Source: an uncultured Synergistales bacterium (GTDB taxonomy: Bacteria > Synergistota > Synergistia > Synergistales > Aminobacteriaceae). Taken from it: DNA of 42,621 nucleotides. The position numbers and the translations under genes are program-made. Under the pieces are notes generated by a model that was given only the letters and a program-made list of their open reading frames with translations, had not been told where the DNA came from and did not search any database. Each line of letters opens with the position of its first letter. The first letter of the stretch is position 1. The stretch covers positions 1-42,621 of the forward strand of contig CAJODZ010000027.1 in NCBI GenBank assembly GCA_905233645.1, read 5' to 3'. Positions 20,895 to 41,810 of the stretch are shown piece by piece.

Positions 20895-21527
20895 TTATTC
20901 GGCGTTAAAAAATTTTATATAGTCCCAATCGTCAACAGCTTGCTTAAATGAGAATATTTCCGGCCAGCTAAAAACATGTGGCGCACCTATTCCGTTAGAG
21001 ACTGGATTTTTGATATTGAGCTTTACGGCTGATTTAACGTCTGGATAATCTTTATAAGTGAACAAAACTTTGTGCTTATAAGGTAATTCATCAAATTGTT
21101 TTACGATTTCGGGGCTTGAGTATTCACCGTCTGTCATCATTATGAATAAATTATCGAAGTCGATACGTTTTGAGCGTTCATACCATTTTGCAACGGCCTC
21201 GTCAAAATTTTGATAGTGCATAAAGTAAACTTTTATATCGTCCAAAATTCCGACTGGAAAATTTTTATCGTTTTCAAAATCCTGTACAACAGGCAATGAT
21301 AAATAACGCTTTAAATCAGCACAGAATTTTACAAAGTCGCCAGCTGTGAAATATAAATTAACTGTTGGTGAATTAAATTTTAAACCTAATTCGTGCAACA
21401 ACAAAGCTCCTGTGCAGTCTTTAGATATTACGGAAAAATTTTTGTTGGTAAGTTGTTTACTTTTGTTTCTTACATTTGCGCTACGGATAAATCTGCGGAA
21501 CTTGTTCCAAACTCTGAGGGCTATCAT
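20895..21527 (-). CDS. DUF1919-family protein (exopolysaccharide-associated)
   Basis: NKNFSVISKDCTGALLLHELGLKFNSPTVNLYFTAGDFVKFCADL..., HVFSWPEIFSF: DUF1919-like pattern. Confidence 0.8.
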   Translation of the reverse strand: MIALRVWNKFRRFIRSANVRNKSKQLTNKNFSVISKDCTGALLLHELGLKFNSPTVNLYFTAGDFVKFCADLKRYLSLPVVQDFENDKNFPVGILDDIKVYFMHYQNFDEAVAKWYERSKRIDFDNLFIMMTDGEYSSPEIVKQFDELPYKHKVLFTYKDYPDVKSAVKLNIKNPVSNGIGAPHVFSWPEIFSFKQAVDDWDYIKFFNAE

Positions 21528-21590
21528 GATTTTGTAAACCCTCTTTTGTTAAGAAGACGTATAGAATTTTTAGAAATAGTATACGCTACT

Positions 21591-21632
21591 GCGAACTGCG
21601 AACTGCGAACTGCGAACTGCGAACTGCGAACT
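21591..21632 (-). repeat. Heptanucleotide tandem repeat, 6 x GCGAACT (minus strand AGTTCGC)
   Basis: Direct reading: six perfect contiguous copies, 63 bp upstream of the DUF1919 ATG. Confidence 0.99.
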
Positions 21633-21669
21633 ATTATGTGCAAATTGCCGCACTTTTGTCAACCTCCTT
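21633..21669 (-). promoter_or_regulatory. Leader/promoter-like cassette upstream of heptad tract A
   Basis: Minus strand AAGGAGG-TTGACA-N18-CATAAT abutting the repeats; resembles the cassette at 41061-41100. Confidence 0.55.
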
Positions 21670-21770
21670 ATTGCTGAAAATATCGTGTAAATTTTTAAAT
21701 TCGTTTGTTGCAATACACGCCGTTGAATATTAGCATATCCTTTCTAAAAAATAATCGGAGTTGAAATTTT

Positions 21771-41060: not shown

Positions 41061-41100
41061 AAGGAGTACTCTTGACAAAATGCAAAATCGCACAATAATT
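41061..41100 (+). promoter_or_regulatory. Leader/promoter-like cassette upstream of heptad tract B
   Basis: AAGGAGTACTC-TTGACA-N16-AATAAT abutting the repeats; ATG at 41080 opens a frame through the tract. Confidence 0.6.
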
Positions 41101-41163
41101 GAGCAACGAGCAACGAGCAACGAGCAACGAGCAACGAGCAACGAGCAACGAGCAACGAGCAAC
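41101..41163 (+). repeat. Heptanucleotide tandem repeat, 9 x GAGCAAC
   Basis: Direct reading: nine perfect contiguous copies. Confidence 0.99.
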
Positions 41164-41734
41164 GCTATTCTATTGTCCTTTCAAACGTAAACAGGAATGA
41201 TTATATTGACTTCTTAAAAGGTGTTCTTATTTGTCTTGTCGTTTGGGCACACTTGGATGGCGCGTTTTTTGAACATTCTGCTGACAGGTTAGATTTTAGA
41301 ATAGCTTATTCTTTTCATATGTTCATGTTTATGTTTGTGAGTGGCTGGCTTGTTAAAAGTCTTGGCCGAGAATTAAATTTAAAATGGTTATTAAAACGTT
41401 TTAGAAATTTGATGATACCGTACTTAGCATGGACTTTGATAAATATTTTTAGGCGTGGCAATACTGGAAACTTTTTATCTGAGTATGTGTATAGGGTTTT
41501 AAGCAATTCGTATTGGTTCTTAATTGTATTATTTTTTTGTGATTGCACGATATTTATAATTAACAATATAAAAATTAACAAATATTTTTCAGCAATTCTA
41601 TTCATAATTTTAAGTAATGCGATTTATGTAATATTCCCTCAACTAAGAGAACATGCTGGCGTAGCGTATCTAAGACTGTATGCGGTGCATATGCCGTTTT
41701 ATATGGCTGGATTTTTCATGGCAGATAAAAAACA

Positions 41735-41810
41735 TCTCGTGAATAAACTTTTTGACAGCAAAATAATTTACATGTAAATTATTTTGCTGTCAAAAAGTTT
41801 ATTCACGAGA
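41735..41810. repeat. Perfect 76-bp spacer-less palindrome
   Basis: TCTCGTGAATAAACTTTTTGACAGCAAAATAATTTACA | TGTAAATTATTTTGCTGTCAAAAAGTTTATTCACGAGA, arms of 38 bp exactly complementary. Confidence 0.98.

Follow-up and report, generated by a model that had tools for sequence, protein, structure and literature searches.

The heptanucleotide tract upstream of a DUF1919 gene in an uncultured Synergistales bacterium is likely to be one copy of a genus-wide phase-variation module, in which gain or loss of repeat units moves the stop codon of a short leader open reading frame onto the start codon of the next gene. The sequence design of this module, its recurrence among related genomes, the statistics of its reading phases and a bias in RNA structure at the switched genes are shown below. 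Transcription across the tract, slippage of the repeats in cells and a resulting change in expression are inferred.

The locus was studied within a contig of 42,621 nt (CAJODZ010000027.1; hereafter, the window), which belongs to a 1.57 Mb, 80%-complete genome. As detected by TRF, the tract on the minus strand consists of 6.43 tandem copies with a 100% match (Table 1). The window has only one other 7-mer array with at least three exact copies, (GAGCAAC)9.14 at 41101-41164, and a search of the 1.57 Mb genome for a three-copy AGTTCGC unit, with one mismatch allowed, found no other site; the reversed control of that search gave 0 matches in the same genome.

When units were added or removed in silico, the fate of the leader depended on the number of copies. 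With six copies, the leader ends at a TAA (21572-21570) that finishes 18 nt past the tract, and its peptide closes with SSVYYF. With seven copies it meets a TAG 2 nt past the tract, while with five or eight copies it stays open to a TGA (21526-21524) that overlaps the DUF1919 ATG (21527-21525) as ATGA. The assembled six-copy state is accordingly labelled here as the predicted OFF state for DUF1919, a label inferred from sequence alone, with expression itself inferred. The original prediction had described six heptamer copies (AGTTCGC on the minus strand) between a leader start of the form AAGGAGG-9 nt-GTG at 21653 and a DUF1919 ATG at 21527, together with the leader stops for five or eight, six and seven copies. 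The copies held base-exactly, both starts held, and all of the stops were recomputed and held as well. Its claim that this design would permit translational coupling is supported by the comparison across the genus, which shows that the layout is not the product of chance at a single locus; its suggested effect on expression was an inference and remains one. Absent from it were the TTGACA-N18-CATAAT sequence lying over the leader start and the recurrence of the layout across the genus.

Table 1. Coordinates, in window numbering, of the features of the DUF1919 locus and of the second element in the window
Feature	Position	Strand	Basis
DUF1919 gene, 210 aa, switched gene	20895..21527	-	PF08942 E=2.8e-60; profile to solved structure 2g6t E=1.9e-35
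Hairpin: DUF1919 SD (GAGGG) with codons just past ATG	21516..21543	-	MFE; z = -1.95 (50 nt), -2.40 (104 nt) vs dinucleotide shuffles
TGA met by leader at 5 or 8 copies, overlapping DUF1919 ATG (ATGA), predicted ON	21524..21526	-	Phase calculation
Six-copy leader ORF, MRQFAHNSSQFAVRSSQFAVRSSVYYF then stop, predicted OFF state	21570..21653	-	Translation
Tandem tract (AGTTCGC)6.43	21588..21632	-	TRF, perfect copies
P2, sigma-70 promoter-like: TTGACA (21662-21657), N18, CATAAT (21638-21633)	21633..21662	-	11/12 match
Leader start codon GTG, 9 nt after GGAGG	21651..21653	-	NTG at 8-9 nt in 51/56 elements
Leader Shine-Dalgarno AAGGAGG	21663..21669	-	Sequence; GGAGG 5' of the tract in 28/28 loci of the header-blind search
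Degenerate -10 of the upstream promoter, CGATATTTT (consensus in the genus, TGNTATAAT, at 19-22 nt 5' of GGAGG)	21677..21685	-	Near the P1 site of most relatives; 4/6 match, no TG
Second window element, AAGGAG...TTGACAAAATG...AATAAT(GAGCAAC)9.14, fused type into acyltransferase	41061..41164	+	TRF, translation

At least 56 copies of one element were found in 43 genomes of the genus, which belongs to the order Synergistales. The parts in order are an extended -10 promoter, which is often present, then TAAGGAGG, 8-9 nt, an NTG start, a tandem tract and a cluster of stops; the tract unit is a 7-mer, or rarely a 5- or 4-mer. The copies are related by descent, and the counts given here are not fully independent. 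A search with the header pattern matched 25 of the 43 genomes, with nearly all of the matches running directly into a tandem tract, while the reversed pattern gave no matches in the 43 genomes. Units linked to the header are mostly GTTCGCA, with at least seven other heptamers also represented. Because three loci (L042, L043 and L058) have the usual header in front of either a GAACA pentamer, at 11-13 copies, or a TGCT tetramer, the header appears to be tied to tandem tracts generally and not to one particular unit.

A second search, blind to the header and using the tract alone, recovered 30 loci. GGAGG was present in all 28 of those with enough upstream sequence, positioned 34-36 nt before the tract start, or farther away only at loci whose apparent start is displaced by a mutated copy, and these 28 loci also carry the same -35/-10 hexamers or close variants of them. 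Outside the genus, the header pattern yielded three matches, and the two that were read are tRNA promoters without tracts; no 4-copy tracts were found in other genera of the same family. Within the genomes searched, the element belongs to this genus.

Translation of the leader is inferred from three features of the sequences. The first is the conservation of its signals, with an NTG situated 8-9 nt after GGAGG in 51 of 56 elements (ATG 16, GTG 16, TTG 19, CTG 0). The second is the avoidance of a built-in stop, in that the leader frame misses the TAA inside TATAAT in every one of the 51 elements analysed in the frame table. The third is a set of eight further, fused loci, where leader and gene are joined in frame. 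At most of these, including four DUF1919 orthologues, the gene lacks a start codon of its own that could be used downstream of the tract, as exemplified by the DUF1919 orthologue L016 and by the acyltransferase of the window. The acyltransferase element is OFF as assembled, and with 10 or 7 copies its leader would be in frame with the gene.

The same acyltransferase ORF is cut, about 0.8 kb from the contig end, by a perfect 38-bp inverted repeat without a spacer (41735-41810). An assembly fold-back is one possible explanation for this repeat, and the ORF beyond it has no Pfam match. Elsewhere in the same genome, further elements lie on contigs G000:C2 (L101), C11 (L103), C55 (L115) and C42 (L114), and they include a 10-mer tract, (AAACAACAGC)2.8, with a frame-dependent fusion to a 391-aa ORF. 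Further fused elements also occur in this genome, two of which lead to apparent family-8 glycosyltransferases, as judged by inspection and with no profile match.

Support for a switch also comes from where the leader phases end. In 42 unfused elements, the gene start was chosen by its SD and start codon, independently of the leader, and the null was generated by dinucleotide shuffling of the interval between tract and gene. The longest leader phase ends between -1 and +4 nt from the gene start in 23 of the 42 (null mean, 5.9) and between -1 and +20 nt in 36 (null, 11.7), with the commonest offset, +4, corresponding to the ATGA-type overlap (21 loci). At unfused loci, two of the phases terminate shortly beyond the tract, usually 2 and 7 nt from its end and inside the conserved post-tract text TAGCTTAGTCTGTCC, while the third reaches the start codon of the next gene, usually as ATGA. 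Coupling of overlapping cistrons calls for an upstream stop at or near the downstream start, and this is fulfilled in one phase, by ATGA in the case of the window. As assembled, 14 of 51 elements are in the ON phase, which is near one third. Judging from this sequence comparison, the combination of leader ORF, phase and start-overlapping stop is not a single-locus coincidence.

It is conceivable that the tract is inert, and that the layout was merely inherited through duplication of a promoter cassette, with the overlap of stop and start arising by chance. In favor of this view, headers from one genome resemble each other more than they resemble those of other genomes (identity of 0.60 versus 0.45; 0/500 permutations), as would follow from copying or conversion. 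On the other hand, leader stops meet gene starts in many unrelated gene clusters, across intervals of 34-96 nt and far above the shuffled null, and an inert tract is very unlikely. The difference in header identity does suggest that copying or gene conversion takes place within genomes.

The genes placed under the phase-variation module are of a consistent kind. They fall into approximately 19 clusters, nearly all of glycan type, and include glycosyltransferases, methyltransferases, a cytidylyltransferase, TupA-type ATP-grasp, radical SAM and DUF268 proteins, a hexapeptide transferase and DUF1919. Dozens of genes for sugar modification within a single genus are preceded by the same switch, which therefore appears to be a reusable on/off module. 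Of the 42 congeners searched, 7 have relatives of the DUF1919 gene. Five other DUF1919 loci have 7-mer repeats directly 5' of the gene, with AGTTCGC, AGTCAGC or CTTGCGT as the unit and from 2.7 to 8 copies, and a sixth is truncated by a contig end within such a tract. Common to the five, 5' of the tract, is the arrangement (A)GGAGG/GGGGG-TTGACA-like-N17/18-TATAAT; no heptamer tracts were found at the DUF1919 genes of Haemophilus and others. At two loci, L019 and L044, an identical header and a similar GCAGTCA tract precede a DUF1919 gene at one and, in a different species, a methyltransferase gene at the other, as though the switch were a portable cassette.

Copy numbers differ among orthologues, in comparisons made between species only: they range from 2.7 to 8 for DUF1919, where the units also differ, and from 2.7 to 10 for a methyltransferase. 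Some contigs end in or beside tracts (G037 C95/C124, at L052 and L053; G010 C7/C11, at L066 and L093), and one genome has a pair of contigs with an exact overlap of 141 nt that ends inside the tract. Such an overlap at a tract break is as expected for a branching k-mer graph, and fits alternative copy numbers in the sample without proving them. Contig ends at tracts may thus point, if only indirectly, to mixtures of copy number in the sequenced samples.

Two promoter-like sequences accompany the element. The upstream one, P1, is an extended -10 (TGNTATAAT) that most elements carry at 19-22 nt before GGAGG; an exact TATAAT occurs in 31 of 56 versus 2.4 in shuffles, and P1 often lies just downstream of a terminator. 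Transcripts from P1 would be expected, from their inferred position, to include the leader SD. The second, P2, matches a consensus sigma-70 promoter of the form TTGACA-N16-18-TATAAT; in every element (56/56 for the spacing) it lies over the start of the leader and points into the tract. Its hexamers are conserved across elements while the reading frame of TATAAT varies, and they also precede tRNA genes in this genome. With no RNA data at hand, it is inferred from their position that P2 transcripts would begin within the tract and lack the leader start. The conservation of P2 is not explained by the leader-coupling model. The possibility that P2 is a by-product of GGAGGTTGACA copying was considered and found unlikely, with TATAAT being kept in two frames and the -35 varying mostly to weaker -35-like hexamers. 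At the window, the upstream -10 is degenerate and the inner promoter intact; because of this, the locus may be a weak or partly decayed switch, and the degenerate P1 is the main caveat to the reading of this locus given by the original prediction.

P2 also gives rise to another explanation, namely that the tract is an untranslated 5' spacer, with transcription starting from P2 inside the tract and copy number tuning the promoter or mRNA in a graded way, as proposed for hmw1A/hmw2A of Haemophilus. Supporting this idea are the conservation of TTGACA-N16-18-TATAAT across elements in both leader reading frames, the placement of the tract exactly where transcription would start, the fact that the P2 hexamers also drive tRNA genes, and the better match of P2 than of P1 to a promoter at the window. 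However, a 5' spacer fails to explain the conservation of NTG and SD, the pattern of two stop phases and one start-overlapping phase, and the fused loci whose gene has no other start. This explanation is considered unlikely.

RNA structure offers a further line of evidence for the phase-variation module. The start regions of switched genes fold more tightly than those of 81 control genes taken from these loci (MFE of -16.5 versus -12.5; GC-adjusted difference, -3.0 +/- 0.7 kcal/mol), and their SD is less often unpaired (0.28 versus 0.44; p=0.002). In the MFE structure of the window locus, the GAGGG in the SD of DUF1919 is paired with a CCCTC immediately after the ATG. When the sequence upstream of the SD was shuffled, SD accessibility was unchanged (mean z +0.25). 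Because upstream shuffling had no effect, the bias appears to originate in local hairpins that involve the 5' end of the gene itself, and masking of the SD by tract or post-tract RNA is not supported.

A different role for RNA structure would be attenuation, in which a long leader frame keeps a transcription terminator open. This has precedent in the pil1 locus of Streptococcus gallolyticus, where a phase-variable leader peptide of the same kind was shown experimentally (PMC3894217), and a weak stem-loop does lie between tract and gene in the window. Nevertheless, terminator-like hairpins between tract and gene were found in only 1 of 37 elements versus 2.1 expected in shuffles, while the same test upstream of the element was positive in 15 of 35; there is no terminator between the tract and DUF1919 in the window, and the long phase ends at the start codon and not at a hairpin. 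With terminators not enriched between tract and gene, attenuation is disfavored and must be regarded as very unlikely; polarity that depends on Rho would be a milder variant of it.

Under the favored model of leader coupling, the short leader ORF would start at the NTG 8-9 nt past GGAGG and be read through the non-triplet tandem tract, such that any unit gained or lost would move the downstream frame. In two phases, ribosomes would halt at the TAG/TTAG-type stops past the tract, and the hairpin-held RBS of the next gene would be poorly used (OFF). In the third, ribosomes would reach the stop over the next start codon and unfold the hairpin, after which they would re-initiate or pass on (ON); this opening of the hairpin is itself an inference. 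At the window, the ON state would be the ATGA reached with 5 or 8 copies, and in fused modules the leader would become the N-terminus of the gene itself. The OFF state may be leaky, since many switched genes retain a recognizable SD.

Among known systems, the closest in logic is the pil1 leader switch of S. gallolyticus, in which GCAGA repeats alter the length of a leader peptide and, consequently, read-through of a terminator (PMC3894217). Both pil1/pil3 and the module have non-triplet repeats inside a leader ORF with an SD and start, where copies modulo 3 set the stop and the expression of a downstream surface gene (PMC3894217); the window leader fits this pattern, its tract lying inside an ORF with its own SD and start, and its stop set by copies modulo 3. 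In pil1/pil3, however, the repeat is a pentamer and the leader acts on a terminator before the pilus genes, whereas the present module lacks terminators, has a leader stop that coincides with the gene start, occurs at many unrelated glycan genes, and contains a second, overlapping promoter. The window tract also fits what is expected of simple-sequence-repeat contingency loci, in being perfect, having a unit that is not a multiple of three and adjoining a surface-feature gene.

The heptamers of H. influenzae hmw1A/hmw2A modulate transcription from within the promoter by an exact mechanism that is unresolved (PMC2651432). Like the module, they are 7-base repeats, placed approximately 100 bp upstream of a surface gene, and two transcription starts have been discussed (PMC2651432), but they have no leader ORF with a start-overlapping stop. 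The repeats of H. influenzae lic2A/lex2A switch glycan genes by frameshift. Their position just after the translational start (PMC2651432) matches that of the fused elements, including the acyltransferase at 41101, yet they are mostly intragenic tetramers and not a shared promoter-leader cassette before many separate genes. Finally, the TAACTGA arrays of marine Beggiatoaceae are numerous heptamer arrays directly 5' of start codons, for which a translational role was proposed (PMC4679880); they differ in that the repeats carry stop codons, lack a leader frame and precede genes of all classes (PMC4679880). No further relevant papers on the combination of leader and tract, or on phase variation in Synergistetes/Synergistota, turned up in the literature searched, with subscription papers not excluded.

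A bolder reading is possible, though judged less likely than not, in which the 35-bp header is doubly coded, supplying both the SD and start of the leader and, as P2, a strong sigma-70 promoter directed into the tract. This promoter would then matter to the switch, either through more slippage via transcription of the repeat or through competition with the leader transcripts of P1, and the header-tract-stop unit would be portable, being copied or homogenized between glycan genes in each genome.

Few systems are known to achieve phase variation by means of a leader ORF, and the single example in the literature searched works through transcription termination. In the present case, an entire genus of Synergistales from animal guts appears to rely on a single standard module for switching many different glycan genes, mostly by moving the leader stop onto the next start codon, and contingency loci are thereby extended to a phylum for which the searched papers report none. 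The natural variants of the module offer a ready test of coupling, and its counting rule, copies modulo 3, would allow ON and OFF states to be predicted from metagenomes. If it is true that the embedded promoter affects slippage, the module would also bear on what sets the mutation rates of repeats.
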